Source: a virus. Taken from it: 24,358 bases of DNA. The position numbers and the translations under genes are program-made. Positions 268-23,414 of the stretch are shown in pieces. Numbering within the stretch: the stretch's first letter is position 1; every line of letters begins with the position of its first letter. The stretch lies in the IMG/VR virus record IMGVR_UViG_3300029263_000602, positions 1 through 24,358 of that record; one strand, 5' to 3'. Under the pieces are notes generated by a model. It did no database searches. It was not told the origin of the DNA and saw only the letters and a list, made by a program, of their open reading frames with translations.

Positions 268-633
268 TTACTCCGCCGCGTGTGATTTATATTCAATAAG
301 ATCTGAGTTAGTCAATTCATTTATTTTTCGTTTAACATCTGCTCGCATATCATTTAATATGTATACGGACCGCGATAATTCAATAAACGTTTCACCAAAA
401 TCCTTGGCTTTTTCACGTTCTCGCTTTCCATCTTCAATATCCCATAACTCATTATTAATAGTAAGAAGCACTTCAATTAATGAATCAAGAATCCTTGAAT
501 TGGGCTCGTTTGGTTTTAAGCTCAATAACATATCCAATTCTTTATTGTCACCTATCCCGTGGGCTTGCTTAATTTTAAGAATAGTTATCTTATCAAAGTA
601 TTCACCCATACTTACGTCTATACTAACTTTCAT
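268..633 (-). CDS. DUF6165-like conserved protein
   Basis: A 121-residue soluble protein beginning MKVSIDVSMGEYFDKITIL. The pattern of S(L/M)GE followed by DKITIL near the N-terminus, then a helical K/E-rich region, matches my memory of the DUF6165 family, usually found beside glycan or LPS biosynthesis genes; its function is not established. The start has AGAGG 5 nt upstream and overlaps the preceding GT9-like gene by 11 nt, so the two are probably translationally coupled. No membrane segment or signal peptide is visible. The assignment is by recognised pattern, not by a search. Confidence 0.65.
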   Translation of the reverse strand: MKVSIDVSMGEYFDKITILKIKQAHGIGDNKELDMLLSLKPNEPNSRILDSLIEVLLTINNELWDIEDGKREREKAKDFGETFIELSRSVYILNDMRADVKRKINELTNSDLIEYKSHAAE

Positions 634-1348
634 ATGAACCTCTTGAATAATTTAAAACTGCGCCGGCTTTTAAAACATTTTTCAGTTGTGTGCTATAGAA
701 TTGATGTGTATAGTTACTACTGTATATATGTATCTTATTAGATGGCATAACAATTTTAGCAAGATGCATAAAACCTGAATCCACACCAACATGTAAGTCG
801 GCTTTAGACATTATATATGCAACTTTATTCAAATCATGTTTTAAATCATAAACTTCAGCTTGACCCCCGACGCCAATAATGTTATAGCCTAAGTCTCGGT
901 AAAACTCTATATTACGTTTTATTTCTTCCTCACTACACCGCCTTCTTTGTTGCCCTGCATCCCATTGCATTGTAATAAATTTCTTAGGTAATCCAGGAAA
1001 ACTTTCTGAGTGATCTTTTACTTTTATTTTTGGAAAATCACCTAAAGAAGATAACAAGTCTTGATAAACTGAGTTCTTTAGACTAATATTATACCTAGGA
1101 TAATTTAAAAATTTCAAATTAGTTTTGAAATCGGGTGCCATTTCTAATATCATATGGCGTGGTTTGTATAAAGAACTTAGTTCTTTCCATCCAATGAATT
1201 CTTCAGCACCGTGCTGATGACGTGATTTGTATATAGTAACATAGTCATCATTGGCTTCTGATGCTAACATATTTGCGTAGCATAACCAATCTATTCTATC
1301 GCCTAAACCAACACCTTTTACGGATGTTTCTAATACTAAATGTTGCAT
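623..1348 (-). CDS. GT9-like glycosyltransferase (heptosyltransferase fold)
   Basis: A 241-residue protein. The C-terminal half contains a KFITMQWDAG strand, a nucleotide-sugar-type GVGG loop, and MSKADLHVGVDSGFMHLAK, a typical signature of GT-B family 9 enzymes, where an acidic residue and D-S-G-x-x-H-L-A contact the ADP-sugar donor. Family members transfer heptose or related sugars onto LPS. At 241 residues it is shorter than cellular heptosyltransferases (about 320-350), so the N-terminal acceptor domain is reduced. The start ATG follows the stop of the cytidylyltransferase-cupin gene directly (TAGATG), indicating one operon. Donor and acceptor are unknown. Confidence 0.7.
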   Translation of the reverse strand: MQHLVLETSVKGVGLGDRIDWLCYANMLASEANDDYVTIYKSRHQHGAEEFIGWKELSSLYKPRHMILEMAPDFKTNLKFLNYPRYNISLKNSVYQDLLSSLGDFPKIKVKDHSESFPGLPKKFITMQWDAGQQRRRCSEEEIKRNIEFYRDLGYNIIGVGGQAEVYDLKHDLNKVAYIMSKADLHVGVDSGFMHLAKIVMPSNKIHIYSSNYTHQFYSTQLKNVLKAGAVLNYSRGSYES

Positions 1349-2119
1349 CTATCTTCTTTCAATATCTGATTCTTCACATCTTTCTCCGAATTGAATTTCA
1401 ATAACATGGCAAGGTTCATTTCCTACACTTATTGCTTTATGCCATGTTCCAGCGTTTATCACCATAGTGTCATGGGGTTTCATTATAGTTGATTTCATAT
1501 CACCCGCATAATCTTCAGTAATCATAACCAGCTTACCTTTTATAACGTACCAATGCTCAGTACGATATTTGTGCTTTTGATCTGATAATGATTTGTCTGG
1601 ATCGATGACTAACTCTTTAGTTTTAAAGACTTCTTTGTCATCAAGTACACGATAGAATCCCCATCGGGTTTCTGTCTTTTGAGTCTTCCAATCATCAAGA
1701 ATTGTACTTGATGAATTCTTTTTATGTTCACCACCAACACCGAACTCAAATGCTAATGTATTATCACCTTTAAGTATCATGCCTTCTTCAGGAATATTAG
1801 TAGTGGTTCTATCACCACCATTCATGAATACAAGCTCTTTACCGATTTCAATGTTATTGACAGCATTAATTAAATCCATTGCGGATCCATCTTCATCATT
1901 AAAAGCTAAAACTTGAAAGTCACAATTAAGATTTAAATGTTTTAAAATGTATGCTCTTTCGACCCAAGGCATAAATCCTTGGCCCTTTTTACGTATTAAC
2001 CAATCATCACTGTTTGGCCCAATGTACAAAAAATTACAGCGGGACGATGCATCTACAATATAGTCTATATGACCAGAATGTAGAGGATCGAACCCGCCAG
2101 TAACTATTCCAATTTTCAT
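1349..2119 (-). CDS. Cytidylyltransferase-cupin fusion protein
   Basis: A 256-residue two-domain protein. Residues 1 to about 130 form a nucleotidyltransferase domain: GGFDPLHSGHIDYI (residues 8-21) carries the HxGH motif, and FMNGGDR resembles the second nucleotide-binding segment of RfaE/HldE-type transferases. Residues about 150-256 look like a cupin: RTEHWYVIKG, then INAGTWHKA near the end, the usual strand-turn pattern of sugar isomerase or epimerase cupins (type II mannose-6-phosphate isomerase-like). Such a fusion could activate a sugar phosphate and modify or bind the sugar, supplying the GT9-like enzyme encoded immediately downstream. The Shine-Dalgarno sequence is weak. Domain calls are fairly firm; the substrate is unknown. 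Confidence 0.75.
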   Translation of the reverse strand: MKIGIVTGGFDPLHSGHIDYIVDASSRCNFLYIGPNSDDWLIRKKGQGFMPWVERAYILKHLNLNCDFQVLAFNDEDGSAMDLINAVNNIEIGKELVFMNGGDRTTTNIPEEGMILKGDNTLAFEFGVGGEHKKNSSSTILDDWKTQKTETRWGFYRVLDDKEVFKTKELVIDPDKSLSDQKHKYRTEHWYVIKGKLVMITEDYAGDMKSTIMKPHDTMVINAGTWHKAISVGNEPCHVIEIQFGERCEESDIERR

Positions 2120-13697: not shown

Positions 13698-14099
13698 TTA
13701 TTGGGGAGTGGATATACCATCCATAGTATCATTTGCTTCGATGTAATATTTTTTATATGCACCAATGATAGAGTGCTGTTGTGAGATATACATCCTAATA
13801 TCAGAAAGATTTAAAGCAATGTTTTCATATCCTTCATCTGTTAAACCGAAGAAAACTAGAGGTCTGCCGCTATCTTTTATTTGTGAGAATGCTTCTTCAT
13901 GATTATCTGGAGTAATTAGAATCCATTCTACTTTTCTTTGAACTAATTCATCTGCTACAGGTAAAACTAACTTAGGTTTTTCTATAGGTTTAGTTGCTAT
14001 CTGTATTGGTTCTGGAATATCATTCAGACCTAGACAACCCCCCAGAAGTAATAAGATCGTCATAGACCCAAGGACATTCGCTATTGAACGCTTTGCCAT
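13698..14099 (-). CDS. Outer-membrane spanin-like lipoprotein (Rz1-type)
   Basis: A 133-residue protein with a lipoprotein signal: MAKRSIANVLGSMTILLLLGGC, positively charged start, hydrophobic core, and lipobox LLGGC with Cys22 as the lipidated residue. Then a proline-rich segment (IPEP to PKLVLP) and a ~90-residue soluble domain containing GLTDEGYENIALNLSDIR. ATG 14099 has AAGGA 9 nt upstream; a start at 14108 would have no spacing. Its start lies inside the preceding spanin gene in another frame (80-nt overlap), as in Rz/Rz1 pairs. It is longer than typical Rz1, but similar proteins are seen beside marine phage spanins as I recall. Confidence 0.75.
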   Translation of the reverse strand: MAKRSIANVLGSMTILLLLGGCLGLNDIPEPIQIATKPIEKPKLVLPVADELVQRKVEWILITPDNHEEAFSQIKDSGRPLVFFGLTDEGYENIALNLSDIRMYISQQHSIIGAYKKYYIEANDTMDGISTPQ

Positions 14100-14505
14100 T
14101 TTTTGCATTCCTTTCTTTCACTGTCAATTCGGCACCAGATTGAATTTCAAAACATCTGAGTGCTTTATCACTTGCATTATTTATTACACGTTCAACTAAT
14201 TCTGGTTTTGCTTCGCCTAGCATACCTATATCATGATTTTGAATCTTTTTCAATAAAACTTTGTTTCTAGTTCGTGTTCTTCTTAGTTCTCTATTAAGTT
14301 TATTTAGTTCTTCATTAACTTTTTTTATATTACTTTCCATACTAGAAATAGTCGCTATTTGTGTTTCAACAGCACCTTCTAATTTTGAATTATTGTCTTT
14401 GAGAATTTCTATTTTTGCTTGCATGTTATTCCATGTCTTATAACCAGCAAACCCAACTGAACTTATTAGTCCTATAACAAAAAGCATAATATAAATTTTG
14501 AGCAT
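14020..14505 (-). CDS. Inner-membrane spanin-like protein (Rz-type)
   Basis: A 161-residue protein with a single N-terminal membrane anchor (about residues 3-21), followed by a long coiled coil (about 27-90) rich in K/E/L/N heptads, then a C-terminal domain with two cysteines, including ELTVKERNAKNGKAFNSECP. This is the usual architecture of an i-spanin: anchored in the inner membrane and crossing the periplasm to meet the lipoprotein encoded in its overlapping 3' end. Together they would disrupt the outer membrane after endolysin action, pointing to a Gram-negative host. Its start overlaps the previous stop (TAATG). Confidence 0.78.
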   Translation of the reverse strand: MLKIYIMLFVIGLISSVGFAGYKTWNNMQAKIEILKDNNSKLEGAVETQIATISSMESNIKKVNEELNKLNRELRRTRTRNKVLLKKIQNHDIGMLGEAKPELVERVINNASDKALRCFEIQSGAELTVKERNAKNGKAFNSECPWVYDDLITSGGLSRSE

Positions 14506-15280: not shown

Positions 15281-15655
15281 TTATATCTTCCTTAATTCTT
15301 CTACTACCTTCGCATTCATTTCAATGCCTATTAAATCGTCGTAATCTACATATTTTAAAAAAATTAAAAAAGGTTTAACTATTGACCAATGGTCATCGTC
15401 CAATTTTAGTTTTAATATTTTCAGCGCGGCATCAACTCCAAAAACATTAAATATGACTACAATATGATTTAAGATTAGGCGAACAGATAATTTTTTATCT
15501 TCAGTTCCAATATATCTGTTCACCAATCTTTTCACATATTTTATTCTATTCAAGTCTTCATGAAATTCTTCAACATCAATACATTTTGGATTGTAATAAT
15601 GCTTTGCTGCAAAAATAATAAGGTTATCTTCTTTAACTTCTTCAAAAATTTTCAT
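15281..15655 (-). CDS. Conserved helical phage protein, unknown function
   Basis: A 124-residue, largely helical protein: FAAKHYYNPKC, then FHEDLNRIKYVKRLVNRY, then a hydrophobic but probably soluble helix (LSVRLILNHIVVIFNVFG). Similar proteins are widespread in T4-like phages as I recall, always small and unassigned. The ribosome-binding site is weak. It follows the large motif-repeat gene by 16 nt. It might bind DNA or a virion protein, but nothing visible proves that. Confidence 0.7.
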   Translation of the reverse strand: MKIFEEVKEDNLIIFAAKHYYNPKCIDVEEFHEDLNRIKYVKRLVNRYIGTEDKKLSVRLILNHIVVIFNVFGVDAALKILKLKLDDDHWSIVKPFLIFLKYVDYDDLIGIEMNAKVVEELRKI

Positions 15656-15671
15656 TATATTTTATATAATC

Positions 15672-17411
15672 TTATTTTTTATTCATGCTGTCTAGAATAT
15701 TTTTCATATTAGTAAATACGGATTCTTCAGACTTAACATCAACTTCAACAGATTCTCCCATTCTCTTACCTTGTGTGGCACTAGTATTAGTTGGAAACTT
15801 GTTCATGCTTTCAAGACCTTTAAGTACCTGCGCCATTGTATGAAATGGTCCATCAACAGAACCTTTGCCCTTTATATGAAAATACCCAGATTTATCTTTG
15901 ACAACCTTTGGTGCGTCCTTGCCCATTGAGTTTAATTTCTTTTGAACTTTAGCAAGTGTTCCTTGATCAACCTCAGTTTTATTACCCAAAGATTCTTTTT
16001 TTACGTCTTCTTTGTCCCAAGGTGCCTTTTTAAGTGATACTTTATCTTTAGGTTTTGCTTTTACTTTATCCAATGCTCTTTGCATTGGTGTTGCCTCATC
16101 AAGTTCAACAGACTCACCAATATTACTGTCACCATTTCTTTTTGGACCTGTTTTGACAGACGCTTTTATAGCATCCATAGTTTTATTGGCAACTTTTGGA
16201 CCATCAACAAATTCTGGAGTCTCTGACTTGTGCATAGCAATAAATTCTTGCTCAGTCATTTCGGTATCAAGAACATCATTTGCTCTGCGACCAGCAACTT
16301 GCTTATCCCAAGTATCAACATTCTGTGGAGCGTCACCTACTCTTTTTTCATCAAGTTCTTCGACAGATTCCATGAAGTCTTTAACTTTTTTACCTTTGAT
16401 AATAAGAGTCGTCATCGCGGAAGTTGAAATCCACTTAATGTTTGCATTTGCAAGTTGGATCAGTTCATCATCAGGAAGTTTCTTTATCATCTTAGACAAT
16501 TTTTGTCCAAGTTCCATGGAGATACGATCACCAGTAGTTGCATACGACTTTTTCATTGCTGCGATTTGACCCGGAGATAATGCTTCGTCAAGAATATCAA
16601 CTTTAGTATTAAGAATTTTTAAACCAATAGAACGTAAATCTTCTGCTTCGTCAAGTTCAACAGATTCCTTAACCAAACTAGTCATACTTGCTCCCATATC
16701 ACCCATCGCCATTGATACTTTCCCATTTCTATCGTATAGGTAATGCTTTACTTTTGCAGCACCTTCGCCTTGTTTAACCAAAGTAATTTTTCCAACTTTT
16801 GCTTTACCAACAATGGATTTAAATGTTACTTTAAATGTTCCCTCTTGCTGTTTCTTAATTGAAGAACCGTATTTGATTGTAACCATGTCGCCTTTTTTCA
16901 GACCATCGAATGTCGATTTAAAATCTGCGCCTTCATCAAGTTCAACAGATTCTTTTTGTGCTTCATTAGTTTTCTTTTTATCAGTGTCTTTTTTAAGGAC
17001 AGAACCCTTTTCGTCACGATCATCATCATCGTCTTTTTCTGGAGTGGCATCAGTTACTTTTGGTTTAGACTGATCTAACTCTTTTCCATCATCCTTGTCA
17101 ATTTCTTTACTGACAGTTTTACGGCGGTTGTCCAGATATTCGTCAGACTTATCAACATCGCCATCGTTATCAATATCTTTGTCTTTACGATCTTTAAATT
17201 TCTTTTTCAGTGCCTTTGGTTGAACTTTATCAAGTCCCTCACCATCATCAGATTTATTATTTGTATTATCCTCTGACATAGAAGGATCGTCATCTTTCAT
17301 CATAGACCCATCTGGCATCTTGTGCTTGCCATTTTTTTTCTTTTCTTCTAGTGCCAGCATCTGCGTGTATGCGTTGGCAATATTGGTGTTTACTTCATTA
17401 TTCGGGTCCAT
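15672..17411 (-). CDS. Multi-domain internal/virion protein with ESVELDE repeats
   Basis: A 579-residue, highly charged protein. Residues 1-150 are low complexity and acidic/basic, with one EF-hand-like loop (DIDNDGDVDKSD, 79-90). Then follow compact modules separated by the motif ESVELDE or variants at 154-160, 249-255, 348-355, 433-439 and 553-559. One module (about 165-245) looks beta-rich, with KKGDMVTIKYG and HYLYDRNGKVSMAMGDM. The motif plus Ala/Gly (LDE followed by A or G) fits the T4 prohead-protease rule (I/L)xE, so the protein may be cleaved during head maturation. AGGAG lies 8 nt before the ATG. No enzymatic domain is recognised; the internal-head role is inferred. Confidence 0.7.
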   Translation of the reverse strand: MDPNNEVNTNIANAYTQMLALEEKKKNGKHKMPDGSMMKDDDPSMSEDNTNNKSDDGEGLDKVQPKALKKKFKDRKDKDIDNDGDVDKSDEYLDNRRKTVSKEIDKDDGKELDQSKPKVTDATPEKDDDDDRDEKGSVLKKDTDKKKTNEAQKESVELDEGADFKSTFDGLKKGDMVTIKYGSSIKKQQEGTFKVTFKSIVGKAKVGKITLVKQGEGAAKVKHYLYDRNGKVSMAMGDMGASMTSLVKESVELDEAEDLRSIGLKILNTKVDILDEALSPGQIAAMKKSYATTGDRISMELGQKLSKMIKKLPDDELIQLANANIKWISTSAMTTLIIKGKKVKDFMESVEELDEKRVGDAPQNVDTWDKQVAGRRANDVLDTEMTEQEFIAMHKSETPEFVDGPKVANKTMDAIKASVKTGPKRNGDSNIGESVELDEATPMQRALDKVKAKPKDKVSLKKAPWDKEDVKKESLGNKTEVDQGTLAKVQKKLNSMGKDAPKVVKDKSGYFHIKGKGSVDGPFHTMAQVLKGLESMNKFPTNTSATQGKRMGESVEVDVKSEESVFTNMKNILDSMNKK

Positions 17412-17739: not shown

Positions 17740-18030
17740 TTAATTATTAACTTTAGCACTTCCACGCCATTGATAGCAACTCCAATATTTCGCTTTCCAC
17801 TTGGGTCCAGCATCTTTATCGCATCCATGACGCGCCCTAAATGCTGCCCTTCTTTTTGGGTCATCTCTTTTTATTTCCATGTTCGGGTCGCCAAAAGTAA
17901 CTTTAACTATATTACCCTTATCATTTTTTACATACACGCCAAACTTTTTGTTGGAACCAGAAGGTAGACGAAATGGATCGTTTAGTTTCTTATTGCTATT
18001 ATCTTCGCAAAAATTACTAAAACTAATCAT
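17740..18030 (-). CDS. Small conserved phage/virus domain (DUF5872-like)
   Basis: A 96-residue protein. The conserved core runs from KFGVYVKNDKGNIVKVTFGD through NMEIKRDDPKRRAAFRARHGC to KWKAKYWSCYQW. This domain is common in large phages and resembles what I remember as DUF5872; two cysteines and one His may bind metal. ATG 18030 overlaps the previous stop by 8 nt with GGA upstream; the longer reading would need a TTG start. Because the gene ends the internal-protein operon, it is likely a virion or packaged protein. Function unknown. Confidence 0.75.
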   Translation of the reverse strand: MISFSNFCEDNSNKKLNDPFRLPSGSNKKFGVYVKNDKGNIVKVTFGDPNMEIKRDDPKRRAAFRARHGCDKDAGPKWKAKYWSCYQWRGSAKVNN

Positions 18031-19822
18031 TAGATTTTTCCATGTGCTGTTTTGCTCTTTGGATTGCCAATCGCGCACTTTCTCCAATACGATAGAATTT
18101 ACTCATAGCAGATTCATATGGACCAGTTTCCGCTGATCTGGAACTAAGTCTGGGTTTCCCCTTCTTGTTGCCAGCAGATTCCTGCACATCTTTAACAACC
18201 CAATGACTACCATTCAAGTCACTATTGTCGTTTGGACATTCACATCCCTCTTTTGCTTGATTTGGCGCACATCCACAATCTTCACAAACCATTTCTGGTT
18301 TATTAGCATATTCGCTAAGTTCATCTCCTAGTGGAGTTAGAACCTTTTCACGAAGTTTTACACCAAACATTTTCTCAACATTCTTTTTGCCCATGCTTTT
18401 TGCCATAGCGGTAATAACATATTCTCTAGGTTCAGTGTCCATATCATCTACGAATTTTTTCAATTTCATATCTAAACCTTTACGCAGCAATTTTGCTGCA
18501 ATCATGAAATCTTTTTCATCAATTCCACCATGCGATTTTGCATATTTTTCAATCGCTTTGGCAGCAGATTCCATACCAAGCGCACCCACAGTCTCATCAA
18601 TCTCAACAGATTCCTTCTTCATGGATTTCTGAAACGCTTTGTATTCCTTACGTCTTGCATCGTTATCTGCTTTTTCTTTGGGAGTCATTTGCGATACTGG
18701 TTTAGTTTTGCCTTCTTTAATGATGTCGCCTACTTTATGTTTTTTAAAATTCATACTGAAAGAGCCACCTTTATTACCATCTTTTGCTTGCTTGATATTC
18801 ATCTTACGCATAGCATCTTTACTGCCTACTGCTTGAACAACTCCTTTAGGGTCTTGATAATAGTATTGGTTAATACTATTTTTCATAGAGATTGCTTCTC
18901 CCATTTTATTTGATCTTTTTTGTACATCTTTAATGTAATCTTGTGTGGCAGATGTTTTTTTGACAACCTTCTTATTTCTATTCATATGCGCTGCATATTT
19001 GTCAGAATCAATTTTAGGTGCTTTTTCATCAAGAGATTCTTTATGCCAATTTTTACTAGGATTTTTTTCCGCGAACTTTTCCGCTGCGCTTAAATTATGA
19101 AACTTATTACTAGCATATCCAGACTTATCAGCAGTGTAATTGTACTCTCCACTTTTGGGGAGTGTTGATATTTTCCAACCATTGATAGTACGTTCATCAA
19201 GTTCAACAGATTCTTTGTACATGTTCAATTCATACTTATTGCCCATGTTATACACTTGTACTTGAACGCCCTTTTCTTTACCACTCTTATCGCTACCCAT
19301 TAAACGATATGAATTGGTTTTACCGTTTGCGGGTTTGCGTGGACCCATGCCTACTTGATCCATTCTTTCATCGTCTGTGATTTCTATACCATATTGCTTT
19401 TTTGCATGGGAAATGGCAGTATCAATCGCACTACCTAATGTTTTGTGGTGTAATTCATAACCCGTAGATGATTTTTCTTCTGAAAAAGATTCGTCAAAGT
19501 CGCCGTTGTCAGAATCTAGTTGTGCATTGTCCCAACCGTCAAACCAACTATCGCGTTCCTGACCTTTCTTTTTATTTGGATTCTTATTCCGTTTGATGTT
19601 AGACATCCAAGCATCATAACCACTTCTTTCTGCATCTTTCCATGATTTTTTTGCTTCTGATACGTCTTCTCGCTCATCTGCCAGAATGTTGAGTTCAACA
19701 TCTTCTTCTAGTTCATCGGCAACATTATCTAACTCAGCAAGTGCTTCGAGAAATTCTGTTTTGGTTACGTCATTTGCATGACTACCACTATGTTCTTTTA
19801 TGAATTGAGATATACTTTTCAT
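18023..19822 (-). CDS. Large modular internal-head-like protein with T4 CTS-like start
   Basis: A 599-residue protein. The N-terminus MKSISQFIKEH closely resembles the capsid-targeting sequence of T4 internal proteins (MKTYQEFIAEA). An acidic helical segment follows (30-60), then several small modules separated by ESVELDE (204-210), ESLDE (262-266) and ESVEIDE (404-410). A cysteine cluster (Cys513, 516, 518, 527, 529) may bind a metal ion. No enzyme motif is seen. Shine-Dalgarno AAGGG precedes the ATG. It lies in the late operon between the nucleotidyltransferase and the DUF5872-like gene. I infer that it is packed in the head and processed by the prohead protease. Confidence 0.7.
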   Translation of the reverse strand: MKSISQFIKEHSGSHANDVTKTEFLEALAELDNVADELEEDVELNILADEREDVSEAKKSWKDAERSGYDAWMSNIKRNKNPNKKKGQERDSWFDGWDNAQLDSDNGDFDESFSEEKSSTGYELHHKTLGSAIDTAISHAKKQYGIEITDDERMDQVGMGPRKPANGKTNSYRLMGSDKSGKEKGVQVQVYNMGNKYELNMYKESVELDERTINGWKISTLPKSGEYNYTADKSGYASNKFHNLSAAEKFAEKNPSKNWHKESLDEKAPKIDSDKYAAHMNRNKKVVKKTSATQDYIKDVQKRSNKMGEAISMKNSINQYYYQDPKGVVQAVGSKDAMRKMNIKQAKDGNKGGSFSMNFKKHKVGDIIKEGKTKPVSQMTPKEKADNDARRKEYKAFQKSMKKESVEIDETVGALGMESAAKAIEKYAKSHGGIDEKDFMIAAKLLRKGLDMKLKKFVDDMDTEPREYVITAMAKSMGKKNVEKMFGVKLREKVLTPLGDELSEYANKPEMVCEDCGCAPNQAKEGCECPNDNSDLNGSHWVVKDVQESAGNKKGKPRLSSRSAETGPYESAMSKFYRIGESARLAIQRAKQHMEKSND

Positions 19823-21277
19823 TTAATTTCCCTTTACTTTTGCTGCTAAGTCTGAGTCTGCTTTGCCCCAAGTACCACTGGACTTAGTTACAAATGAATT
19901 TACCCTTGCCATACCCCATTGTTGAGGTGTTGTTCCTGGTCTATGTCCAGTGCGCCATGCTGCTACACCTCTATCATAAACTTTCTTTAAGATGCCCAAG
20001 GGCATTCCTGTTTTTTCTGCTTTGTTTTTGAGACCTTCAGTGTTTTCATTAACATCTTCTGGTACACAATTGGGAACGCTTTTTCCCTTTTTGTTCTTCA
20101 TTCCAACTTGCTTGTAACCATCCCAACAATCTTCATCATACATCTTCTTGAAATTTTTTGTATGCTTAGAAGGTTTTGTTTCAGCGTCAGAATCTCCTGG
20201 TGCTGGTTTATATGCGCTATTGTCATCATCATTTTTTGCCGCGCCCGCTTTGAAATGTGAATCTCTTTTACTTTTTGTAGATTTAGACATATCACCAGCA
20301 TAATACTTTGCTGGTTGAGTGCCTTTTTTATCTTTAATATCTTGGTCTTGTACTACTTCTTTTACTTTTTTCTTTGAGGGAATATAACTTTTCTCTGCGT
20401 GTTTACGATAAGAATCTGTGCCAATTTCTTGCTCATTTATTGCCTCATCAATCGACTCTACAGAATCTAACCATTTGCGGATAGTAGTGCCATCTTCTTT
20501 TTCGAGAATTAAATAATTCGGACCCCGAACTTGAATAATTGCTTTTTCTTGAATATCGGTAATCATGACCATATCGCCAACATTAAAGATATTACCCTCA
20601 ACAAATTTTTCTCTGATATTAGATACAGTTTCAAGTTTTACATGGTTATGAAACTCATGTGCCTCTTTAAGTCCCATACCTTTTCTTACTGCATTAAACA
20701 GTTCTTTGGCGTCTTTATCTGACATAGTGGAAGGCAGTGCTTGAGAAAATAATATAAAATCATTATCTTGTGCTGCTTTGCGTTGTTTAGTCCCAGAAGC
20801 ACCGTTGACACCTTCGCCATCGGCATCACGTTGCCCAGCACTAATAACATTTAGAGTTTTAAAGTTATAAAACCCATGCTTACCCTTCACACCATTATAT
20901 TTTTTAAGGCGATTATCTAGTTCTTCTACTCTATCACTTCCAGTTACCATAACAGCATTTAGGTAACCATCGGAATACAATGCACTCGCGGCATTCATTA
21001 CATCCTTTACAGAAGTATTCATCATTACACTACGAGATTGTTTGGGAAACATCTTACGTACAAATTTTACTTTATCTACATAGGATAACGGATTCTTCTT
21101 TGAGTCATTGGATTGAGAAAGGTAAATTCTATATGGATTATTACCTGCTTTTTTACTGAGAACACTTAGTAGAAATCCATGACCTATAGTCGGAGGATTC
21201 ATTCTACCGAAAGTGAAATATACAGTTTTTTCTTCTTCTACCAAATACTGTTTGAATGATGTAAAACTAACGTCCAC
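19823..21277 (-). CDS. Nucleotidyltransferase with DUF5824-like C-terminus
   Basis: A 484-residue protein starting at a GTG codon (AGGA 10 nt upstream). After a CTS-like head (SFTSFKQYLVEE), residues 18 to about 180 form an adenylyl/cytidylyltransferase domain: FGRMNPPTIGH (23-33, the (H/T)xGH motif), MVTGSDRVEEL (110-120), and SGTKQRKAA near 165, equivalent to the ISSTxxR motif. A middle basic/acidic region includes the motif DSVESIDE (271-278). The C-terminal ~60 residues (GILKKVYDRGVAAWRTGHRP to KADSDLAAK) resemble DUF5824. It is probably an NMN- or sugar-phosphate-type transferase; the substrate is unknown. Packaging in the head is inferred from the N-terminus and neighbours. Confidence 0.8.
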   Translation of the reverse strand: MDVSFTSFKQYLVEEEKTVYFTFGRMNPPTIGHGFLLSVLSKKAGNNPYRIYLSQSNDSKKNPLSYVDKVKFVRKMFPKQSRSVMMNTSVKDVMNAASALYSDGYLNAVMVTGSDRVEELDNRLKKYNGVKGKHGFYNFKTLNVISAGQRDADGEGVNGASGTKQRKAAQDNDFILFSQALPSTMSDKDAKELFNAVRKGMGLKEAHEFHNHVKLETVSNIREKFVEGNIFNVGDMVMITDIQEKAIIQVRGPNYLILEKEDGTTIRKWLDSVESIDEAINEQEIGTDSYRKHAEKSYIPSKKKVKEVVQDQDIKDKKGTQPAKYYAGDMSKSTKSKRDSHFKAGAAKNDDDNSAYKPAPGDSDAETKPSKHTKNFKKMYDEDCWDGYKQVGMKNKKGKSVPNCVPEDVNENTEGLKNKAEKTGMPLGILKKVYDRGVAAWRTGHRPGTTPQQWGMARVNSFVTKSSGTWGKADSDLAAKVKGN

Positions 21278-21282
21278 GATTT

Positions 21283-22176
21283 TTATTTCCTAGCATCTGT
21301 AGAGGGTTTGTTGATTTTTCCAAATCTTTCTTTTTCTCTCTGTCTAACTACTGGCATCATTTTCTTAGCGATTGCTTTGATCTTACCTTGCATTTTAGAC
21401 AGTCTCTTTTCGATTTCAATTTTACGAGAAGTACTCTGGTCTTGTTTATCAGCACCTTTTGTAAACTTTTTAATCAGAACTTTTTTTGCTGCCTTCTCTG
21501 CCCTTTTTAAAAGGTCACCTTGAGTTGCCTTACGGCGTAGTTTTCTTTCTCTCTTGACAGCATTTCTCTTGGCATGTCTTTTAAACATTCTGCCCCGCGC
21601 AATACGTTGCTGCATGTTTAAGACTTCATCAAGACTCTCATCAACTTCAGCAGATTCTTTTGCTGCCATTACTGGTTTTTTGTTAAGTTTATACTTATCA
21701 TAACTTTTAGGCAGTCCATCAAATTTGTCTCTGGAAAATCTTAAATCTTTTCTCTTTGAATTCTTTACTTCATTACTGTGATCTTCATCACCCTTATCAG
21801 CACTCTGACCGAAGGCAGAATTTCTCATAGAATCTAAATCTTTTTGAAGTTGTTTCATCCTACGCAAAGTTTGCGGATTGACCATTTTAGAACCTGGTCT
21901 CATTTGAGACAGTTCAGAAATTTCTTCGCGGATTTTTTTGATTTCGTCTTTATGTCTAAGTCGCGCTTTACGCAAATCGGCAGTTCTATCTATCCTATCT
22001 TGTTTTCGATCAAGCGGAGATTCTTCATTTACATCAGGTTTATCATGGGTATAACCCAGTTTCTTCATCCGTAAATGATCTGCTGCTTTTTTTACTTTGT
22101 AACCCTTACCACTTTTGGGGTCATACATCATATGTGGTAATTCTGTCTTCTCTGTTAACTGTCTAAATGTTTTCAT
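21283..22176 (-). CDS. Highly basic, DNA-binding-like internal protein
   Basis: A 297-residue protein starting MKTFRQLTEKTEL, another sequence resembling the T4 capsid-targeting start. The middle has a coiled-coil-like K/E/R/L region (75-125). The motif ESAEVDESLDE lies at 174-184, and the rest (185-297) is extremely rich in Lys and Arg (MFKRHAKRNAVKRERKLRRK). Removal of the acidic front by cleavage at VDE or LDE would release a very basic fragment, as in T4 internal proteins that neutralise packaged DNA. The start shares one base with the stop of the ligase-like gene and has AGGA upstream. Virion location is an inference. Confidence 0.72.
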   Translation of the reverse strand: MKTFRQLTEKTELPHMMYDPKSGKGYKVKKAADHLRMKKLGYTHDKPDVNEESPLDRKQDRIDRTADLRKARLRHKDEIKKIREEISELSQMRPGSKMVNPQTLRRMKQLQKDLDSMRNSAFGQSADKGDEDHSNEVKNSKRKDLRFSRDKFDGLPKSYDKYKLNKKPVMAAKESAEVDESLDEVLNMQQRIARGRMFKRHAKRNAVKRERKLRRKATQGDLLKRAEKAAKKVLIKKFTKGADKQDQSTSRKIEIEKRLSKMQGKIKAIAKKMMPVVRQREKERFGKINKPSTDARK

Positions 22177-23414
22177 TAGTTCCTACCTGCTTTGTCCCAT
22201 CCTTTTAAAATATTGGGTGAAAAGTTGTTGTATGAAAATTCCATACGATCAACAATTTTCACTGCATCACCACCAAGTTTATCAATTACTACATAACCCT
22301 CTTCTCCAGTTACCTTAAAACCATCTTTGGTCTGGACAAAAGTATTTATAGTTTTCATTCTATCAAGTATATTTATAAGTTTTAGTTTTACAACTACGAT
22401 TAATTTTTGCAATTCAAACATTTTTTTAAGGTTGGATTTGTTCTCATCAGAGAAAAACTTCAATAGTTCATCTCTTTTTGTCTCTTGTGCAGTCTTTCCA
22501 CGTTGAGTTTTGCGCTTGTCGATCTCTTTCTGGAATTTCATCTTATGCCATTCAATGAGTTTATCAACATGCTTGCTTGTATCACCAATCAATTCGCCCT
22601 TGCGAACATAAGTGTTATTAAATGTTTCTATGGATTGAGCAAGACTCTTATTACCTTCCAGAGATTTAAGAGTAGTTGCTGTGATAGAATTAAATACTTT
22701 ACCTATATTAGATAAATTATTATTCACATCATCTGTATCTTTTTTAGTCATTGTAACATGACTCATATCTCGCAACATAGCATCTTGACTCCATACGTTC
22801 TTAGATGCTTTGAATTTACTTACATCAACGTCATAGACTGCCTTCATATTCTCAAATGTATTACCTACATATGATGTATGCCATACGATACCAATCTGAC
22901 TACTCATAACATCTTTTGCCGCCTGTGAATCAGCATCTATTGCATATAGTATGGTATTGGGGTGGAAGGTGAGATATTTTTTTCCACCAATGACTTTTGT
23001 TGACAAATCGTTTCGGGAATATAAGAAGTCTCCTTGGACCACACCTGTGATACCCAACTCTGGCAAGTACTTGAGTGCACTTTTAAGCAAAGCATTAAGA
23101 TCAGCAGAAGTATCAGAATCGATGTCATCTGAAGATTTATAGACTTTAGGGTTTTTGTTGAATATTCCTTTTTTGGCAACGAAAAAGCGGTTATCGCTCG
23201 GATCAATACCAGCAAATATAGCAGGAGAACCATCCCATTTAACACTTATATTACCACCCTTTTTACCACTTAACATACCCCTCATATTTCGTAAGGCAAC
23301 TATTGCTTCTCTTGTTCCAGAAACCCCACCATATAGTACTTTATCTTCGATATGCGTCATATGCATATTCTTCGTTTCAGTAACAAAAGCATTAGAGTCT
23401 TTCAGGGGGTTCAT
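22176..23414 (-). CDS. Ligase-like nucleotidyltransferase (KxDG superfamily)
   Basis: A 412-residue protein with elements of covalent nucleotidyltransferases: VKWDG with Lys59 as the putative AMP-accepting lysine (motif I), VQGDFLYS near 127-133 (motif III/IIIa-like), EEGYVV at 371-376 (motif IV) and AVKIV at 384-388 (motif V). The ~180 residues between motif III and IV are mostly helical and unusual for small ligases. It may join DNA or RNA ends or repair packaged genomes; I recall similar unassigned proteins in T4-like marine phages. Start ATG has AAGGA 6 nt upstream and a late promoter 28 nt away. Biochemical activity is unproven. Confidence 0.68.
   Translation of the reverse strand: MNPLKDSNAFVTETKNMHMTHIEDKVLYGGVSGTREAIVALRNMRGMLSGKKGGNISVKWDGSPAIFAGIDPSDNRFFVAKKGIFNKNPKVYKSSDDIDSDTSADLNALLKSALKYLPELGITGVVQGDFLYSRNDLSTKVIGGKKYLTFHPNTILYAIDADSQAAKDVMSSQIGIVWHTSYVGNTFENMKAVYDVDVSKFKASKNVWSQDAMLRDMSHVTMTKKDTDDVNNNLSNIGKVFNSITATTLKSLEGNKSLAQSIETFNNTYVRKGELIGDTSKHVDKLIEWHKMKFQKEIDKRKTQRGKTAQETKRDELLKFFSDENKSNLKKMFELQKLIVVVKLKLINILDRMKTINTFVQTKDGFKVTGEEGYVVIDKLGGDAVKIVDRMEFSYNNFSPNILKGWDKAGRN

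Follow-up and report, generated by a model that had tools for sequence, protein, structure and literature searches.

In a 24,358-bp piece of a T4-like marine myophage genome (record IMGVR_UViG_3300029263_000602; hereafter the window), three adjacent genes encode proteins that begin like the capsid-targeting sequence (CTS) of the T4 internal proteins, and proteins of the same locus are strings of small modules joined by a short repeated separator of the type KESVELDE. We consider it probable that this is a T4-like head-cargo locus, with CTS-led import, trimming by a gp21-type protease, polyproteins cut at their separators, and separators that also serve as homology seams. The enzyme of the set has homologues in the purified virions of other phages, and the separators resemble prohead-protease sites in peptide and are near-identical in DNA within arrays.

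Gene order and relatives of the window

The nearest named relatives of the window are phage C48C1, Methylophilales phage Melnitz and Pelagibacter phage HTVC008M, all Kyanoviridae. On the minus strand, in the direction of transcription, the locus runs A (DUF6267), B, C, D, E, a coiled-coil protein and G (Table 1). In Pfam and PHROGs, D matched no family, and the modules of D and G matched no known enzyme domain; for the D modules, a PDB sequence search and Foldseek against the PDB and viral models returned nothing at E ≤ 0.001 (weak PAS-like matches were ignored), and a PDB profile search with C gave no match. A prohead protease gene was found in all three named relatives and in five of the related contigs searched; the 24-kb window holds none, and the gp21 and gp23 homologues of the window phage are both absent from it. 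Elsewhere in the window, an overlapping minus-strand pair (13698-14108 and 14020-14505) resembles Rz/Rz1 spanins, a coiled protein with a membrane anchor preceding a lipoprotein (LLLGGCLG), and a second HxGH-type nucleotidyltransferase (623-2119, minus strand; MKIGIVTGGFDPLHSGH) with a cupin-like C-terminal half adjoins a possible glycosyltransferase, the last two judged by eye only.

Table 1 Features of the probable head-cargo locus in window coordinates (a slash marks the predicted cut).
Feature	Position	Strand	Basis
Gene A, DUF6267 protein	22176-23414	−	PF19782, 7e-97
Gene B, basic protein	21283-22176	−	ORF
CTS-like N-terminus of B, MKTFRQLTE/K	22150-22176	−	top score among all N-termini tested
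Separator KESAEVDE in B	21637-21660	−	sequence, DNA pattern
Gene C, nucleotidyltransferase (cytidylyltransferase/NMNAT-like) with C-terminal DUF5824, GTG start	19823-21277	−	phrog_3041, 5e-96; DUF5824, 1e-20
CTS-like N-terminus of C, (M)DVSFTSFKQYLVE/E	21236-21277	−	sequence, alignment, score
Separator-like SVESIDE/A in C	20444-20464	−	sequence
Gene D, 599-aa modular array protein, CTS-like start	18023-19822	−	module-swapped orthologues
CTS-like N-terminus of D, MKSISQFIKE/H	19793-19822	−	score, sequence
Separator KESVELDE in D	19193-19216	−	sequence, DNA pattern
Separator KESLDE in D	19025-19042	−	sequence
Separator KESVEIDE in D, helical rather than disordered in the model	18593-18616	−	sequence, DNA pattern, model
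Gene E, small Cys-containing protein, starts MISFSNFCED	17740-18030	−	internal ATG is the true start
Gene G, 579-aa second modular array protein, N-terminus not CTS-like	15672-17411	−	sequence
Separator KESVELDE in G	16932-16955	−	sequence, DNA pattern
Separator KESVELDE in G	16647-16670	−	sequence, DNA pattern
Separator ESVEELDE in G	16347-16370	−	sequence
Separator ESVELDE in G	16095-16115	−	sequence

Capsid-targeting-like N-termini and virion-detected homologues

The initial annotation had read the starts of B, C and D as resembling T4 capsid targeting, and the three adjacent minus-strand frames and their N-termini were recovered as it had described them. Its T4 reference sequence, MKTYQEFIAEA, had been given for both IPI and IPIII; it is correct for IPIII (and for IPII), whereas IPI begins MKTFKEFTSTTT (MKTFKEFTST) in the T4 sequence. 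N-termini were scored by BLOSUM62 against the real IPI, IPII and IPIII starts, with 5,201 internal-Met windows and 1,198 phage N-termini as backgrounds. The start of B (MKTFRQLTEKT) scored 34, a value reached by none of the sequences in either background, and that of D (MKSISQFIKEH) scored 24, reached by 0.04% of internal-Met windows and by 1.4% of N-termini, of which many are themselves CTS-like. C, which from its GTG start reads (M)DVSFTSFKQYLVEEEKTVYFTFGRMNPPT, carries the CTS-like SFKQYLVE/E after extra N-terminal residues; aligned in register, FTSFKQYLVEE scored 15, reached by 0.4% of internal 10-mers. Residue for residue, the three starts thus align with the T4 CTS well beyond chance, bearing out the likeness: D and C have hydrophobic residues at 4, 7 and 8 and Glu at 10, which is the T4 register, B has F4 and L7 with its Glu at 9, one residue earlier, and phi-x-E stands at the expected place in all three. 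In IPIII, residues 4 and 7 are needed for targeting and residues 8 and 10 for processing (Mullaney and Black, reviewed in PMC9026906).

By the same register test, in which B, D and C were significant, E was weak (score 13, reached by 2.6% of internal-Met windows) and A and G were not significant; the start of A (...AFVTE/TKN) scored 8, not significant alone, and DUF6267 homologues in other phages start MISFKKFITEQ or MNSFKQFISEQ. Across seven related genomes, the CTS-like pattern was enriched 15-fold at N-termini relative to internal Met residues (19 of 1,198 versus 5 of 5,201; P = 2 × 10−10), the pattern used having differed between counts and looser versions catching false positives. Such starts cluster near the C gene only marginally (P = 0.048, small numbers). 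A P-loop kinase-like protein (FLAGGPGSGKS) with a CTS-like start (MKSFKNYLSEG, MKTFAELQEG) occurs at G001:C1:16191-16904 and at 65855-66523 of Melnitz; the window is without it at the matching place.

A search for the same start in relatives, which the initial annotation had proposed, showed that about 50 distinct C orthologue N-termini, nearly all of those compared, keep the CTS register as [ST]F-x-x-x-[FY]-L-[VI]-E-E-E or a close variant, with a Phe that does not vary in an alignment extending to sequences of 34% identity. The S-CREM2 homologue has a 17-aa linker inserted after the tag, and that of HTVC008M (MKTLKELLRKKVGRK) has no Glu at the predicted site. Published mass spectrometry reports C homologues in the virions of at least five T4-like cyanophages, with a warning by the proteomics authors of possible co-purification (PMC10665884, PMC9602691): purified virions of S-SM1 (PMC3037559), S-CREM2 (PMC10665884), S-SZBM1 (PMC9146016) and S-SCSM1 (PMC9602691) contained one, as did those of S-CBWM1 according to a citation within the S-SCSM1 paper (PMC9602691). 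The three virion-detected homologues that were compared start MKNFSSFLTE/A, MRFRQFIIE/A and MKSFLQFLKE/A, and linkers of differing length lie between these starts and the enzyme fold, so the tag is separable from the enzyme.

Neighbouring genes show related features. S-CREM2 ORF155, 156 and 160, around the C homologue, are also virion proteins (PMC10665884), and ORF160 has a CW-GY module in common with C (E = 1 × 10−5, single comparison); the S-SCSM1 genes around the NMNAT gene (gp089, gp282, gp280 and gp279) carry virion-protein annotation, and gp280 contains EEVELDE together with a DxDNDG module that weakly resembles G (E = 0.019). S-SZBM1_139 was detected in virions yet has a start that is not CTS-like, so the CTS is not the sole way in. 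The claim that this phage packs a set of proteins including an enzyme inside its head is, on these comparisons, well supported for the nucleotidyltransferase C, from the virion-detected homologues and the conserved CTS register, and B and D are likely to be packaged with it. We infer that the packaged proteins would lose their N-termini and be injected into the host.

Separator-joined modules

KESVELDE-type separators occur three times in D, four times in G and once in B, with the related SVESIDE in C; allowing up to two mismatches, the DNA pattern of the tag has five matches in the window and none in 100 shuffles. Orthologues of D keep the CTS-bearing start and differ in their modules, which are gained, lost and swapped at the tags, and one module is found in D of one phage and in G of another, indicating swaps both within and between genes. 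Neither the repeated separators nor the exchange of modules figured in the initial annotation. Modules of the window were seen in up to 60 distinct ORF contexts (19 for the N-terminal and 60 for the C-terminal module of B). Boundaries of relocated modules fell at a tag in 54 of 153 cases, compared with 20.4 expected (s.d. 4.3, maximum 40 in 2,000 trials), so about a third, not all, coincide with a recognized tag.

When viral contigs were scanned with the tag DNA alone, at least 119 stretches were found. Among the matches listed, 59 of the 96 ORFs examined had two or more tags, and many ORFs start CTS-like (for example, MKTFRKILSEVA, MKSFKQMVSEVA and MRFKDFLSEK). On the contigs found by their tags, CTS-like starts head 27% of separator-bearing ORFs versus 10% of others (P = 3 × 10−4), in a comparison with a high background and related sequences. 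Two KESVELDE arrays lie directly after the portal gene, where T4 has gene 67, which encodes a prohead core protein: L189:8740-10494 (minus strand), on a contig that also bears scaffold and gp23 genes, and L224:2641-3882 (plus strand). Judged from this position, the N-termini of both arrays would be gp67 homologues; PHROGs returned no core-protein match for them. A search of the open-access literature, with subscription papers, supplements and preprints outside its scope, found no description of CTS or separator arrays in marine phages.

Possible cleavage and recombination, and alternative explanations

The T4 prohead protease gp21 cleaves after Glu within a short motif. The separators contain L-x-E, matching the T4 prohead-protease consensus (L-x-E/) and the apparent gp23 sites of T4 and seven relatives, which, as placed by alignment to T4, read L-x-E followed by A, T or I; the separators are therefore candidate sites for cleavage by the prohead protease. 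It is unlikely, in our judgement, that the arrays are packaged in the head and stay uncut there, acting whole like polyvalent proteins, with KESVELDE serving as a flexible linker or as a short motif that binds, for example, the scaffold core. Such a role would account for the conservation of the ES prefix beyond what a phi-x-E protease site needs, and for the 28 of 76 distinct ES[VLAI] contexts that have no phi-x-E within seven residues; the other 48 have one, whereas the frequency in a matched control is 21%, and each of the length variants ESVELDE, ESVIDE, ESVDE and ESLDE terminates in phi-x-E. Residue preferences also speak for cleavage: Leu predominates at P3 and Ala is frequent at P1', which resembles the gp23 site. 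Structure models, of modest quality (mean pLDDT 58 and 71) and built from alignments that exclude annotated phage records, place all four G tags in or beside stretches with pLDDT under 50, which favours cutting; in D, the first tag adjoins a disordered stretch, the second lies within one and the third is in a helix, the last in keeping with an uncut linker.

We give very little credence to the idea that the tag has no role in the protein and is instead a DNA element, or a remnant of recent duplication and gene conversion that joins modules. Tag DNA is indeed near-identical within arrays beyond codon usage: separators of one array use the same codons at a frequency of 0.82, versus 0.51 expected from codon usage, in 17 of 17 arrays (P = 1.5 × 10−5, the arrays of related phages not being independent). 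Two groups of phages, however, encode the identical peptide with distinct tag DNA versions (GAATCTGTTGAACTTGATGAR and GAATCCGTTGAACTGGATGAR), and the length variants of the peptide retain phi-x-E. The codon pattern is consistent with selection on the peptide together with homogenization or exchange at the DNA level. Because recent duplication of tag-bearing segments would mimic the sameness of codons, the comparison suggests, at the strength of an inference, that the tags may act as recombination seams. Least probable of the readings weighed, and only barely credible, is that the N-terminal likeness is coincidental and the proteins are intracellular products of the replication region, carried along with virions during purification. 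In relatives, the locus does come after uvsX and primase-helicase, and the DUF7207 protein of the window (15281-15655, minus strand) has a start, MKIFEEVKEDN, that is CTS-like by score (18), yet its apparent S-CREM2 homologue, ORF159, is missing from the reported virion proteins, so CTS-like patterns can mislead; against coincidence stand the virions of at least five phages in which C homologues were detected, and the 15-fold N-terminal enrichment.

A proposed model of head-delivered polyproteins

In the head-cargo explanation that we favour, the CTS would draw C, B and D, and possibly E and the DUF6267 protein A, into the prohead core, where the prohead protease, a gp21 homologue, would trim the imported proteins after phi-x-E. 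In this view, D and G (and B and C in part) would be polyproteins of small modules joined by KESVELDE separators; because the separators fit the L-x-E consensus of the same protease, a single precursor might enter the prohead and be split there, so that several proteins would travel in the head and be delivered into the host. The start of G, not being CTS-like, counts against its entry by the CTS route. Modules would be swapped as cassettes between arrays and between phages through the separators, which, being near-identical in DNA, could also act as homology seams. More tentatively, and here we remain on the doubtful side, marine T4-like phages may deliver polyproteins from their heads as a cassette system, with a single 21-24-nt separator doubling as prohead-protease site and DNA seam. 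By analogy with T4 IPI, which inhibits a host restriction enzyme (PMC3012670), one might guess that the modules serve early counter-defence or host takeover. If the explanation is correct, the heads of abundant ocean phages contain a set of proteins that is rapidly re-assorted and is made as cleavable strings. The combination of a CTS start with KESVELDE separators would then be a sequence rule that predicts virion cargo among uncharacterized proteins of T4-like marine phages, and one could test how this cargo affects the host during the earliest minutes of infection.

Comparison with known systems

Among the systems closest to this one are the PeSLs, short repeated DNA elements that were reportedly proposed (by Arbiol, in 2010) to mediate module exchange in T4-type genomes; they are intergenic and regulatory, whereas the separators of the window form part of coding sequences and specify a peptide. 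Polyvalent proteins (Iyer et al. 2017, PMC5512222) are likewise multidomain and mosaic, are thought to be packaged and injected, and have been proposed to release their domains by proteolysis, but they have known enzymatic domains and often a peptidase of their own, in contrast to the small, unassigned modules of the window and their uniform separator fitting the prohead protease; the modules of D and G match no known enzyme domain in Pfam or PHROGs, and the similarity is in concept only. In the giant phages phiKZ, 201phi2-1 and SPN3US, several proteins of the head interior are cleaved on the C-terminal side of x-x-E; propeptides are removed there, and the portions of the source that bear on this describe no swappable modules strung between repeated sites (PMC5694885). 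Also close are T4 IPI, IPII and IPIII, with the same N-terminal register (Phe, Tyr or Ile at 4, Phe, Leu or Tyr at 7, then phi-x-E) and variable cargo behind a conserved tag; they are single small proteins, whereas the window has a tagged enzyme, multi-module arrays and repeated internal separators, and the arrays are, in this sense, an extension of the T4 internal-protein theme and a new form of it.
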